Part shown: piece by piece, positions 55,755 to 63,074 of the stretch
Layout of the letters: every line of letters begins with the position of its first letter
Position numbering within the stretch: the first letter of the stretch is position 1
Assembly (NCBI GenBank): GCA_019912395.1
Contig: JAIOIH010000040.1
Location: 1-64,000 of the forward strand
DNA: 64,000 nt
Origin: Flavobacteriales bacterium
GTDB taxonomy: Bacteria > Bacteroidota > Bacteroidia > Flavobacteriales_F > PHOS-HE28
Direction: 5' to 3'
Program-made: the position numbers and the translations under genes
The notes under the pieces: model-generated
Databases searched by the model: none
Told to the model about the DNA's origin: nothing
The model's input: only the letters and a program-made list of their open reading frames with translations

Positions 55755-55964
55755 ACGTCATTGCGAGCCGTTCGGAATGCGTGAAAGCGCAGATCGAACG
55801 GCGAAGCGATCTCAGGCGTAGCACTCGGATCGGCCAAGTGCGTTCGTGGAATTCCCCGCGCCGGAGTTGTGGATGCCGTGCTTCCCGCCAATCCGTGCCA
55901 ACCTGCCTGAGATCGCTTCGCGGCCACCCCGCGCTACCGCGCGTGCTGCCCACTCGCGATGACG
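55755..55964. repeat. Long-inverted-repeat element, complete copy 1
   Basis: Left half 55755-55838 runs from ACGTCATTGCGAG through GGCGAAGCGATCTCAGGC to CGGATCGGCCAAG. Right half 55892-55964 runs from TCCGTGCCAACCTGCCTGAG to CTCGCGATGACG. The two halves are imperfect inverted repeats of about 60 bases, so the whole can form a very large hairpin. The core phrase CGTCATTGCGAG is known from dispersed repeats in many bacteria. Confidence 0.8.
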
Positions 55965-56018: not shown

Positions 56019-56102
56019 ACGTCATTGCGAGGCCGTTGGAGCGCACGGAAGTGCGGGCCAAGGGCCGTAGCAATCTCAGGCGGGCCGCTCGGATCGGCCA
56101 AG
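56019..56102. repeat. Long-inverted-repeat element, left half only (copy 2)
   Basis: ACGTCATTGCGAG to GGATCGGCCAAG is present without a following right half. The stop codon of the MmeI-like gene begins 11 bases later (56114). In complete copies that position is the short spacer. Confidence 0.75.
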
Positions 56103-56113
56103 CACTACACCAA

Positions 56114-58888
56114 TCACTTCTTCTTCTTCACCCCCGCCAACAACCCCGCCACATACTTCTCATACAACTCAAACAAGAACTCCACCCGCTTCGCATCATT
56201 GGCGAAGGCTTGCGGACGGTAGCACTTGTCCACGGCCTTGTCCAGGGCTTGGTGGGCCTTTACCAGTGCAGGCGGCATGGTGAGCGGGTCGTAGAGATCC
56301 GCTAAGCTGGCGGTGGGGAATTGGGCGCGGGCATCCAGCACACCTTGGGCGGCGGTTTCAACGGTGGCTTGTTGCGCGGCGGTGGGTTGCTCGGGCCAAG
56401 GGTAGTTGTTGTAGACGATGTCCTTGGAGTAGCGGTAGTCGCTCTTCAAGCGGCCACACACTGAACGCATCCATGCATTGTGCATGGTGCTGCTCAACAT
56501 GCCAAAGTGATAGCGAGTGGCATTGGGCAAGATCTTGACCAAGTTGCTCGCTAAGGTCTTAGGATCCTCAAATCCGATCGGGATGAATGGTCTTCGTTCC
56601 GAGGAAACTTCCGGAATGATCAGATAGGCTTCCTTAGGCATGTTCTCCACATGGAAGCGGGTAGGCGTGCTGGCCAATTTCTGTGTCGGTGCGCTCTTGC
56701 TGGCGAGCCGGACCTGTTTCACAGCTTCGATCCGCTTCAACACTTCAGGCATCGAACGCAATTCACTTGGTGGCGTATCGCCCAACCAGAGGCACCAGCG
56801 TTGCCAGCCGTTGATGAATTCGGCGCTGCCCAACCAGCGGCGGAAGTACTTCTTGGATCCCGGCTCGATTTTGATGAAGCCTGCTTTCTCTTCGTCCGTG
56901 AAGAGGTAGTTGCCACCATCAATGGGCTTGTTGCCGATGCCGATCTCCGGCACGGCACAAAGTGGTTTGCTCCGGCTGCCGATCACCACATCCGGGCCTT
57001 CCACCAAATACGGGTTGATGTTCCGCACCACCTGCTCATTTGGTTCGCCGCGCTCATCGGCATAGCTGAACAAGCGCTTTTTGTCCACATCGAAATCCGC
57101 GAAGCCGACGATGACGCAATGCACGGCGGCCACGCCGCGCGCCTCGTTGTTCCAGCGGAAGGTGCGGTGCGCGAAATGGATCTTGATGCCCTTCGCAAGC
57201 AAGGGTCCCCAGAGGGCGCCCACTTGTTCACCTTGGGTGATGCTGTTAGTGCTGACGAAGGCGCTTCGCGTTTGCTTGTCCCCGTGTGCCCACATGTACT
57301 GCGCCGCCAAGCCATACCAGCCGCAGACGAAGTCCAGTGTGCCCGCGCCCCTTACGCCGGGGAAGATGCGCAGGAGGTCCGTGCGCATTTCCGGGGTCAT
57401 CAGTTTGCTGCCGATGAATGGCGGGTTGCCGAGGATGTAGTCGTACCTCACGTCATTCCGGGTCCGACCCGGGATCCCGGCTACTTCCGAGTCCTCCAAC
57501 AAACCCTGCCAATCCGTAGTGAGCGCATTCGCGCAAGCAACGGTGGCGCTCGCCCGCAGTGGTATCCGCACCATATACTCCCCAAAGGCCGCGCTGATGC
57601 GCTGGTTCATCTGGTGGTCCATCAGCCACATGGCGACCTGCGCGATCTGCGCGGGGAATTCCTCGATCTCTATTCCATAAAAGCGGTCCACGTTCAGCAG
57701 CACCAGCTTGTCCACGTCCACCACTTGTTGGCCCTTCAGTTGCGCGGTGATCACGGCGATCTCCAGTTCGCGCAGCTCGCGGTAGGTGATCACCAGGAAG
57801 TTGCCGCAACCGCAAGCGGGGTCCAGGAAGCGCAGCTCGCTCAGCTTCTTGTGGAACTGGTCCAGCTTGGGCTTGCTGCCCTTCACTTTATCGAACTCGT
57901 CCCAGAGCTCGTCCAGAAAAAGCGGCTTGATGAGCTTCAGGATGTTCTGCTCGCTGGTGTAGTGCGCGCCAAGGTTGCGGCGGGCCTTGGCATCCATGGC
58001 GCTTTGGAAAAGCGCACCGAAGATGGCGGGGCTGATGCGGCTCCAGTTCAGCCCGGCGCATTCCAGCAGCGTAACGCGCATGCTGCCGTTCCAATCGGCG
58101 ATGGGCAACGGATCCGCGAAGAGCTTGCCGTTGATGTACTTGAAGTCCTTCAGGCGTTCGTCCAGGTTCTTCTGGCGCTTCTCTTCCGGCGTGTTCAGCA
58201 ACTGGAAGATGCGGGCGAGCTGCGGCCCGGTGTCGGTGCCGTCCTCGCGGGTCTGGTCCACGATGAAGTTGTAGAAGGCATCCTGCTCGAAGATGCCGGT
58301 GTCGTCGGCGAAGAGGATGAAGAGCAGGCGCACGAGGTAGACCTCCAGCTCCTTCCCGCCATAGCCGGAGGCCTTCAGCTCATCGTGCAGCTCGCCCATG
58401 TATTCCGCCGCGCGGATGTTCACGGGATCCTGCTCGCGCAAGGGGCGCACCTCATAACCGGCAATGAAGTCGAAGAGCTCGATGCGCTGCGGCAGGTCCT
58501 CCAGCAGCAGTTCCGTTTCCACACCGCTCTCCAGATCGTACAGTACGAAGCGTGCAAAATCGCTGACGATGATGTACCGCGGCTTCTCATGCTCCTTCAC
58601 GCCATGGAGGTAATCGACGGCCTGTATAGCGGCCTTCTTCAGGTCCTTGCCGCGGCTCTTGTGCTCAATGAGCACCATGCCGGGCCAGAAGTAATCGATC
58701 TTGCCGAGGGCATCATCCAGCTTGCGCACATGCACTTCGTAGCTGCCCACGGTGCGGGAACGGATTCCGAAGATGTGGAAGAACTCATACCAGAAGGTCT
58801 TGGCATCGGCCTCCTCGTCACTGGCCCCGGCCCATTGCTTGGCGAACTTGGTGGCACGGGTACGTATCTCGCGGCGGCTCAATGGCAT
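56114..58888 (-). CDS. MmeI-like type IIL/IIG restriction-modification enzyme (fused endonuclease and DNA methyltransferase)
   Basis: A 924-residue single-chain enzyme. The N-terminal nuclease has the PD-ExK signature D65-(9)-E75-H-K77 (IDYFWPGMVLIEHK), the same spacing as MmeI. A helical connector leads to NLGAHYTSEQNILKLI (about 305), the SAM-binding motif FLDPACGCGNF (354-364) and the adenine-methylation motif NPPF (488-491). The C-terminal ~400 residues form the target-recognition domain. Such enzymes methylate one strand of an asymmetric site and cut about 20 bases away. Residues about 468-480 (57449-57488) are encoded by a palindromic repeat. It has no separate R or S gene, and it is bordered by repeats on both sides. 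Confidence 0.88.
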   Translation of the reverse strand: MPLSRREIRTRATKFAKQWAGASDEEADAKTFWYEFFHIFGIRSRTVGSYEVHVRKLDDALGKIDYFWPGMVLIEHKSRGKDLKKAAIQAVDYLHGVKEHEKPRYIIVSDFARFVLYDLESGVETELLLEDLPQRIELFDFIAGYEVRPLREQDPVNIRAAEYMGELHDELKASGYGGKELEVYLVRLLFILFADDTGIFEQDAFYNFIVDQTREDGTDTGPQLARIFQLLNTPEEKRQKNLDERLKDFKYINGKLFADPLPIADWNGSMRVTLLECAGLNWSRISPAIFGALFQSAMDAKARRNLGAHYTSEQNILKLIKPLFLDELWDEFDKVKGSKPKLDQFHKKLSELRFLDPACGCGNFLVITYRELRELEIAVITAQLKGQQVVDVDKLVLLNVDRFYGIEIEEFPAQIAQVAMWLMDHQMNQRISAAFGEYMVRIPLRASATVACANALTTDWQGLLEDSEVAGIPGRTRNDVRYDYILGNPPFIGSKLMTPEMRTDLLRIFPGVRGAGTLDFVCGWYGLAAQYMWAHGDKQTRSAFVSTNSITQGEQVGALWGPLLAKGIKIHFAHRTFRWNNEARGVAAVHCVIVGFADFDVDKKRLFSYADERGEPNEQVVRNINPYLVEGPDVVIGSRSKPLCAVPEIGIGNKPIDGGNYLFTDEEKAGFIKIEPGSKKYFRRWLGSAEFINGWQRWCLWLGDTPPSELRSMPEVLKRIEAVKQVRLASKSAPTQKLASTPTRFHVENMPKEAYLIIPEVSSERRPFIPIGFEDPKTLASNLVKILPNATRYHFGMLSSTMHNAWMRSVCGRLKSDYRYSKDIVYNNYPWPEQPTAAQQATVETAAQGVLDARAQFPTASLADLYDPLTMPPALVKAHQALDKAVDKCYRPQAFANDAKRVEFLFELYEKYVAGLLAGVKKKK
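57449..57488. repeat. REP-like palindrome inserted in frame in the MmeI-like gene
   Basis: CACGTCATTCCGGG, then GTCCGACCCGGGATCCCGG, is a widespread intergenic repeat type (its translation in other genomes is the familiar VIPGLTRDPG). Here it lies inside the coding region, just before the methyltransferase NPPF motif. The frame is kept, adding residues reading SEVAGIPGRTRNDV. Confidence 0.7.
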
Positions 58889-58988: not shown

Positions 58989-59189
58989 ACGTCATTGCGA
59001 GGGGTTTGGAATGCGCGGCAGCGCATACCGAACGGCGAAGCAATCTCAGGCGGACCGCACGGATCAGCCAAGTGCATTTCACAATTCCGTTCTTGATGGA
59101 CACTGCTTCCCGCTGATCCGTGCCAACCTGCCTGAGATTGCTTCGCGGCCAGCCCGCGCTCACGCGCATGCTTCCCACTCGCAATGACG
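58989..59189. repeat. Long-inverted-repeat element, complete copy 3
   Basis: Left half 58989-59072, spacer, right half 59117-59189, with a second, diverged copy of the right tip to 59224 (CTCGCGATGACGTG). It lies 100 bases upstream of the MmeI-like start codon. Confidence 0.8.
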
Positions 59190-59260
59190 AGCGTTGTGGC
59201 GCGTGCTGCCCGCTCGCGATGACGTGCGTTGTGGGGAGTGCTGCGGAGTCTCTCCATCGC

Positions 59261-59790
59261 ACGTCATTCCTTCCGGGCACGTCATTCCGAACGCCGAAGC
59301 AACCTCAGGCGCAGCGCACGGATCGGCCAAGCGTCCCTGCCGAATGTCACCGGCCTTCAGCCTCGCGCACTAAGGCGTCGAACAGATCCAGCCAGCCGGG
59401 GTTCATGGACTCGATCAATTTGATCTTGGCTTTTCGACTGCCTGCCTTGATCTTCCGCTCAAGTTCGATGGCCTCTTCGATGTAGGACAAGTGCTGGTAA
59501 TACACGAGCTTGTCCAAATTGTACCGGGCCGTAAAGCTCCGGGGATCATGTTTGGTCTTGTGCTGGTAGCCGCGAACGAGCAGTTCACTGGTGACACCGG
59601 TGTAAAGCACACCGTTCTTCTTGTTCGTCATGATGTAAACACTACCACCTCGTTGCATCAGGAGACCAAAATAAGTGATCCGGAGTGTTGTGGGCACCGT
59701 GCGTCTCACACGTCCGTGCCAACCTGCCTGAGATTGCTTCGGGAACAGCCTGCGCTCCCGCGCATTCTGTTCCCTCGCAATGAGGAGCGT
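59261..59790. mobile_element. Candidate autonomous version of the long-inverted-repeat element, carrying a GIY-YIG nuclease
   Basis: A left half (59261-59331, diverged at its tip, with a second tip at 59279) and a right half (59713-59785) are separated by about 380 bases that contain one complete GIY-YIG gene on the minus strand. Compared with complete copy 6, the left flank matches through GAATGTCA (59342-59349) and the right flank resumes at GTGTTG (59685). In copy 6 the same two phrases are three bases apart (59934-59941 and 59945-59950). The stop codon of the gene overlaps the first phrase. This suggests that the short copies are internally deleted forms of this longer one. Confidence 0.6.
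59347..59658 (-). CDS. Small GIY-YIG family nuclease
   Basis: A 103-residue protein, full length for the stand-alone UPF0213/GIY-YIG class. The N-terminal motif pair is VYI (residues 7-9) and LYTG (18-21), with the catalytic-helix Arg in the LLVRGYQHK stretch and the conserved Glu/Lys region IEEAIELERKIKAGSRKAKIKLIE. It ends in NPGWLDLF. GIY-YIG domains cut DNA. The role of these short versions, abundant in Bacteroidota genomes, is unknown. The ATG at 59658 begins MQRGGSVYIMT. The gene lies between the left and right halves of the repeat element. Confidence 0.9.
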   Translation of the reverse strand: MQRGGSVYIMTNKKNGVLYTGVTSELLVRGYQHKTKHDPRSFTARYNLDKLVYYQHLSYIEEAIELERKIKAGSRKAKIKLIESMNPGWLDLFDALVREAEGR

Positions 59791-59839
59791 TGTGGCGTGT
59801 GCATCTGACACGGCGAGGCGCACGGCCTTCCTTTTCCGC

Positions 59840-60041
59840 ACGTCATTGCGAGCCGTTCGGGATGCGCGACAGCGCATATCGAACGGCGAAGCAATCTCAG
59901 GCGTAACGCAGGGATCGGCCAAGAGCATTGAGGGAATGTCATTCGTGTTGGACACTGCTTCCCGCTGATCCGTGCCAACCTGCCTGAGATCGCTTCGGAA
60001 ACAGCCTGCGCTCCCGTGCATTCTGTTCCCTCGCAATGACG
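59840..60041. repeat. Long-inverted-repeat element, complete copy 6
   Basis: Left half 59840-59923, spacer with GAATGTCA-TTC-GTGTTG, and right half 59969-60041 (TCCGTGCCAACCTG to CTCGCAATGACG). This is the best-preserved copy. It lies between the GIY-YIG-bearing element and the P-type ATPase gene. Confidence 0.82.
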
Positions 60042-62773: not shown

Positions 62774-63074
62774 GCCCGGACCATCGGATCCCATGCGCCC
62801 GTTGGGCGCGGCTCTCCTTGATAAGGACAGGAATGCCCGACGGGCGTGCGGACCGTGATGGTTTGGTCCGATATGTATCGGACCACGGATGGACGCGGAT
62901 CCGTGGTTCTCCTCTTTGGACCGACCGCGCCGCCCTTCGACAAGCTCAGGGCAGGCCGGGTGTGGCCGGAAGCCTGATAGCCCACGGAATAGGGTCTTCG
63001 GCACTAAAAACAGGACTTCCCCGTTACTTTGGCCGTCCCCTTATAGAAGCCCCGGCCCCCTCCGTGATCCCTGC
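62774..63074. other. 301-base gap with two strong hairpins and a common repeat
   Basis: GGTCCGATA (62865-62873) pairs with TATCGGACC (62876-62884). Overlapping it, CCACGGAT (62883-62890) pairs with ATCCGTGG (62899-62906), so only one stem can form fully at a time. At about 62932-62955 the phrase GCCCTTCGACAAGCTCAGGG occurs, a repeat scattered through very many bacterial genomes. A TTACTTTG near 63024 may serve the receptor gene. No gene is seen. Confidence 0.6.

Follow-up and report, generated by a model that had tools for sequence, protein, structure and literature searches.

Single-domain GIY-YIG nuclease genes between inverted CGTC palindromes: a probable two-part mobile system of bacteria

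Why does the gene of a small GIY-YIG nuclease lie between the two halves of a repeat that also occurs nearby without it? This question was raised by the window, the whole 64,000-nucleotide stretch of DNA analysed here, which is contig C9 of a genome (G000) whose nearest named relatives are Bacteroidota. The gene occupies 59347–59658 on the minus strand (stop codon at 59347, ATG at 59656–59658), and its 103-residue translation matched Pfam PF01541 with E = 1.5e-13. All repeat features were annotated on the plus strand. The gene is flanked by a left palindrome at 59276–59331, with an outward CGTC tag, a degenerate stem and a conserved GGATCGGCCAAG extension (84% to the reference left half, family D4), and by a right palindrome at 59713–59783, also tagged outward, which matched positions 130–200 of the copy at 59840–60041 at 96%. 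That copy, a gene-less inverted pair of CGTC palindromes, served as the reference for the others. Further gene-less inverted pairs were located at 58989–59189 (83%; both units pass the tag-hairpin detector) and 55755–55964 (78%), together with an isolated left half, a single CGTC palindrome, at 56019–56102 (73%; tag-hairpin unit at 56020–56074) and a right-end fragment at 59199–59234 in tandem with the 58989–59189 copy (families D5 and D6). The original prediction had placed the gene between two halves of a repeat with complete short copies beside it, and sequence comparison confirmed both points, the short copies matching the reference at 78–83% over their full length. A feature that the original prediction had missed is that each half forms a palindrome by itself, its CGTC tag being left unpaired: CGTC-ATTGCGAG...GAAGCAAT-CTC. 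Within the window, the tag-hairpin detector confined this palindrome type to 55.9–59.9 kb, and the rest of the assembly held the family in just one more cluster, on contig C68; the repeat is therefore low-copy in this genome. An Rfam search of 55–61 kb returned only sub-threshold chance matches.

A close relative, G022, was considered as a possible empty site for the window element; the segment 49928–60174 was wholly replaced there by unrelated sequence, which made the comparison uninformative on the ends. The replaced block carries a PKD-type surface protein, an MmeI-type restriction-modification gene (56114–58888), the repeats and the GIY-YIG gene, is represented in G022 by 7.3 kb of different sequence, and is bordered by about 95% identity on both sides. 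For the C68 cluster, a clean orthologous site was not found in G022. Separately, about 206 bp of the window (62776–62981) were missing at the orthologous G022 site, where the flanks overlap by roughly 12 bp; this segment contains a further palindromic repeat, one of the 'CTTCGACAGGCTCAGGGC' type.

The nuclease is a bare GIY-YIG domain without an added DNA-binding domain. The catalytic Tyr, Arg and Glu that define the superfamily are present, and Y8, Y19, G21, R29, E67 and N86 fall in invariant or nearly invariant columns among 30 homologues. The AlphaFold model had a pLDDT of 94.5, and its nearest solved folds were UPF0213, the structure-selective Slx1 and the UvrC N-domain; the likeness to Slx1 is general to the GIY-YIG fold. 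The matches from a PDB sequence search were repeat-protein artefacts and were discarded. The open frames of these genes continue upstream through the palindromes, reaching up to 314 aa, in the window (59347–60036) and at homologous loci of the same class.

The arrangement was not confined to the window. Homologues of the nuclease, both from the window's genus and from other families of its class, were likewise embedded in repeats of this kind, and for one of them the array exceeded 20 copies. In GTDB contigs, a scan yielded 80 homologous GIY-YIG loci, spread over Bacteroidota, Alpha-, Beta- and Gammaproteobacteria, Campylobacterota, Desulfobacterota, Chloroflexota, Cyanobacteria, Bacillota, Patescibacteria, Elusimicrobiota, Fibrobacterota and WOR-3. 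In a motif-free test, CGCAATGA and CATTGCGA were the 8-mers with the strongest enrichment within 250 bp of these genes; CATTGCGA was present at 58 of the 80 loci vs. 31 of 693 distal windows (p = 6e-46). At most loci lacking CATTGCGA, CGTC-tagged palindromes of other kinds are present, for example ACCCTGAA/ATGCTGAA in Pedobacter and ATCCCGG in Jiella. The detector placed a GTC-tagged hairpin within 250 bp at 63/80 loci vs. 52/693 distal windows, and eight control trinucleotide tags run through the same detector scored 3–13 of 80, which supports the gene-bearing form as a recurrent element across bacteria. Coding sequence makes up most of the distal windows, and a second comparison was therefore limited to intergenic regions, where the association persisted (91/127 beside the gene vs. 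29/177 elsewhere, p = 6e-23). Moreover, independent draws gave 21/30 in Alphaproteobacteria and 18/25 in Bacteroidia, with 0–6 for the control tags; contrary to one outcome that would have counted against the original prediction, most GIY-YIG genes of the clade do not lack such flanks.

Among the 65 loci having any unit, the nearest units pointed their tags outward on both sides of the gene at 29, and the next class comprised 10. The palindromes often lie 10–40 bp from the ORF ends, and some genes are placed between palindrome dimers and not inside one. GTC-tagged units accompanied 11 of 13 plasmid-borne genes, with tidy tag-outward pairs on plasmids of Sphingobium, Novosphingobium, Shinella and Rhizobium, and 20 of 34 genes on viral or proviral contigs; several phage groups had none. 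The gene of Neisseria gonorrhoeae is adjoined by dRS3-type repeats. About a fifth of the loci had no unit by the detector. The gene itself is patchy, occurring in 57/142 alphaproteobacterial genomes and 80/149 genomes of the class, with up to 11 divergent copies per genome.

Some further observations concern other GIY-YIG genes. Another GIY-YIG subfamily was tried as a negative control, and 5 of its 11 loci also had GTC-tagged units, so it was not a clean negative. GTC-tagged palindromes with the stems ACTCC, AGGCC and ACCCT occur near genes of an SDGTYY-type subfamily (L062, L063, L065, L066, L069), and the pairing may thus reach beyond the studied clade to that subfamily. On a Planktothrix plasmid (L190, 1–8252), a GIY-YIG gene and palindromes lie between an MmeI-type gene and the DISARM gene drmA; adjacency of an MmeI-type gene and the nuclease was seen twice, there and in the window. 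At another locus (L322, G281:C9:905000–911500), ten tandem 457-bp copies each carry a GIY-YIG gene of another subfamily and an apparent tRNA 3′ end, near a tRNA-Met gene; CGTC palindromes were not detected in this array.

The relationship between nuclease lineage and palindrome was then evaluated using two architectures, a compact hairpin (type I) and a hairpin whose internal loop is GAG/GAA (type II). Mapped onto a tree of 199 proteins (163 labelled; one row, L256, apparently mis-translated), the architecture changed 4 times vs. a shuffled mean of 50, and within Alphaproteobacteria once vs. 3.9 times. In the window's genus, a finer three-class label changed 3 times vs. 9.6 (window clade support 97) on a 131-row tree for which seven labels were assigned by eye from the flanks and one row, L057, was mis-translated. 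These are single-gene trees of about 100 columns and poorly resolved, and the change counts accordingly carry more weight than any single branch. Furthermore, separate genes within one genome each had their own stem in G181, G004, G006, G007, G037, G042 and G000; in the last, the window gene is accompanied by the ATTGC stem and a second gene, on contig C52, by ACTGCGGG. One alphaproteobacterium carries eleven divergent genes, most with clearly distinct stems of their own. Nuclease lineage thus co-segregates with palindrome architecture independently of the host. In a Limnohabitans MAG (L101), a betaproteobacterial bin, the nuclease is nested among Flavobacterium ones and has the same palindrome, which may reflect transfer or a binning error.

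Comparison of related strains revealed occupied and empty sites. The Azospirillum lipoferum element separates sufB from sufC, which are adjacent in three relatives at 95–97%. At a plasmid site linked to fnrL in Sphingobium, palindrome, gene and palindrome are present on seven plasmids, neither palindrome nor gene is present in TomTYG72 and TomTYG65, and TomTYG64 (L331, 492–520) has one palindrome tagged at both ends. These occupied and empty comparisons showed no clear target-site duplication, their junctions being diverged, and resolved no insertion end to the base; a flank search for Rhizobium CIAT894 found no empty site. In Sinorhizobium meliloti Ak57, a full copy is adjoined by a palindrome, RRWYREWKIELIEKLNPDWRDLYFQLW* (the end of the gene) and a second palindrome, which is an internal-deletion derivative keeping the gene's last codons. 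At the site of the Ak57 element, strain K101 (L200, 467–494) has one doubly tagged palindrome. This doubly tagged scar thus occurs in two genera, Sphingobium and Sinorhizobium, and may arise when both palindromes pair through their outer arms and the gene-holding loop is lost.

The original prediction took the gene-bearing form as the parent of the short copies, citing matches that extend from the halves into the spacer. This boundary argument held in part: in anchored alignments of the spacer flanks against 2000 shuffles, the match was moderate on the right (p = 0.0015–0.08) and weak on the left (p = 0.02–0.84), where the letters TCA within GAATGTCA belong to the gene as its stop codon, which weakens the argument further. 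Descent by deletion is borne out beside the full Ak57 copy, where a 3′ remnant of the gene lies between two REPs, and is poorly supported for the window copies, given the weak homology of their left spacer. At individual loci, the gene may instead have been inserted into an existing palindrome pair, since many genomes hold palindromes and no detected gene.

Copies of the palindrome tend to be concentrated near a gene in several genomes: 40 of 128 in G004 lie in an 11-kb stretch around one gene, 6 of 8 in G026 lie within 700 bp, and those of Jiella cluster around its gene. In G032, two stem variants are interleaved over 58 copies and no GIY-YIG gene was detected, which may reflect gene loss, missing contigs or cross-mobilisation, and in G019, G028 and G033 palindromes are present with GIY-YIG genes of other kinds only, or with none. 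Across 58 relatives, co-occurrence of gene and palindrome was only modest (6/9 vs. 13/49, p = 0.03) and was given no weight in the argument.

The palindromes correspond most closely to the CGTC-REPs defined by Di Nocera, De Gregorio and Rocco in 2013 (PMC3733652), which have an unpaired CGTC or TGTC tag at one end of the palindrome, a stem usually starting with AT, a CCA-like tail and frequent inverted dimers. The window units have the stem ATTGC..GCAAT, the tail CTC (CCA in many homologues) and inverted pairs at 58989–59189 and 59840–60041. Both A. lipoferum (L192) and S. meliloti (L187) are also listed in the 2013 survey, as are the Neisseriae, whose repeats here (L185) are likewise of the dRS3 type; all three are among the hosts in which the gene was found beside or between CGTC repeats. 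The CGTC-REP norm is a stem of 8–9 bp, a loop of 4–5 nt and a length of 20–40 bp; most type I homologue units fit this size, whereas the window units, which are type II, measure about 55–60 bp, with a 5-bp outer stem and a GAG/GAA internal loop. The 2013 survey sought associated transposase genes, found none and described the repeats as ones that 'apparently lack a dedicated transposase' (PMC3733652); here, in contrast, a GIY-YIG gene lies between the repeats. In open-licence PMC papers, no earlier report linking GIY-YIG to REP, REPIN, dRS3 or MITE was found.

Other known systems share parts of the arrangement. In outline it resembles the REPtron of RAYT (TnpA-REP), in which one nuclease gene is flanked by inverted REPs and gene-less pairs occur elsewhere in the genome. 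It differs in what defines that system, however: the RAYT nuclease is HUH-Y1 and its tag GTAG, whereas only PF01541 GIY-YIG was found here, the tag is CGTC and a covalent intermediate is not expected. GIY-YIG homing and group I intron endonucleases share the catalytic fold, and two homologues gave a short N-terminal match to TIGR01453, well below the cut-off; unlike these enzymes, the window type has about 95–103 aa, no separate DNA-binding domain, no intron or intein, and palindromes on both sides. As with MITEs and their parent insertion sequences, inverted ends occur with or without the enzyme gene and an internal-deletion derivative exists (Sinorhizobium Ak57), but no DDE or HUH transposase was found here, the ends are hairpin palindromes, and target-site duplication was not found at the diverged Azospirillum and Sphingobium junctions.

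Taken together, the window probably holds one instance of a very widespread two-part mobile system, in which a single-domain GIY-YIG gene has inverted CGTC-REPs as its cognate ends. The gene-less palindrome pairs would be its non-autonomous form, standing to it as REPINs stand to RAYTs, or MITEs to their parent elements. In this scheme, each enzyme would recognise its cognate palindrome, either folded into a hairpin in single-stranded DNA or extruded as a cruciform, and would nick or break the DNA close to the loop or to the CGTC tag, which is unpaired. GIY-YIG enzymes cut hydrolytically and form no covalent protein–DNA intermediate; for this reason, copying to new sites and growth of local arrays would be finished by host repair or replication, through break-induced or template-switch copying. 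Recognition and nicking or breaking of the cognate tagged hairpin, with copying finished by the host, is the best-supported mechanism, and the nuclease family is a strong candidate for the mobilising enzyme of CGTC-REPs, with cleavage and mobilisation as its putative activities.

Other explanations were weighed against the same data. The nuclease could be a homing-type guest that targets pre-existing CGTC palindromes and inserted there, the palindromes spreading by another route. GIY-YIG is a classic homing-endonuclease domain, palindromes exist without the gene, and some genes lie between dimers and not within one, all as such a guest would have it. This account is nevertheless unlikely, because palindrome architecture goes with the lineage of the nuclease in different hosts (4 changes vs. 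50) and a gene remnant lies between two palindromes in Ak57; the several genes of one genome, each in a different palindrome family, would moreover require the guest itself to be specific. Somewhat less plausible still is a host-maintained system, in which a domesticated nuclease processes hairpins or cruciforms or keeps them in check, or in which the nuclease transcript is under the control of the palindromes; neither would contribute to spreading. Palindromes at 10–40 bp from the ORF ends, and nearest folds among which are Slx1, which is branch-specific, and UvrC, a repair enzyme, fit this picture; patchy presence in both genome samples (57/142 and 80/149), plasmid locations, an element within the suf operon, the known occupied and empty sites and up to 11 divergent copies in a genome argue against it.

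Finally, unrelated transposases might move the palindromes, the proximity of GIY-YIG genes being incidental, for example through a shared intergenic preference. A broad transposase spectrum was raised as a possibility by Di Nocera et al. (2013; PMC3733652). The intergenic-only control (p = 6e-23), the specificity of the tag (63/80 vs. 3–13/80) and co-segregation on the nuclease tree leave this explanation highly improbable.

The wider form of the preferred reading, a two-part mobile system, is that single-domain GIY-YIG nucleases and cognate CGTC palindromes constitute an unrecognised class of mobile element in at least ten phyla, that their hairpin ends spread by GIY-YIG-initiated, repair-completed copying and not by DDE, HUH, recombinase or reverse-transcriptase enzymes, and that they are the source of the CGTC-REP superfamily; we regard this proposal as evenly balanced between true and false.

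CGTC-REPs, including the dRS3 repeats of Neisseria and the RPE repeats of Rickettsia, occur in very many bacteria, and their mobilising enzyme was left unknown in 2013 (PMC3733652). As nuclease lineages track palindrome architecture in more than 160 labelled loci, the question of the mobiliser becomes testable with proteins of about 100 residues. The pairing also accounts for a likely annotation problem, in which palindromes are translated as N-terminal extensions; read-through of this kind probably gives rise to incorrect start sites and to names such as 'excinuclease ABC subunit C'. If the nuclease does move these palindromes, the ways in which short repeats are known to spread in bacterial genomes would gain one that is based on GIY-YIG.
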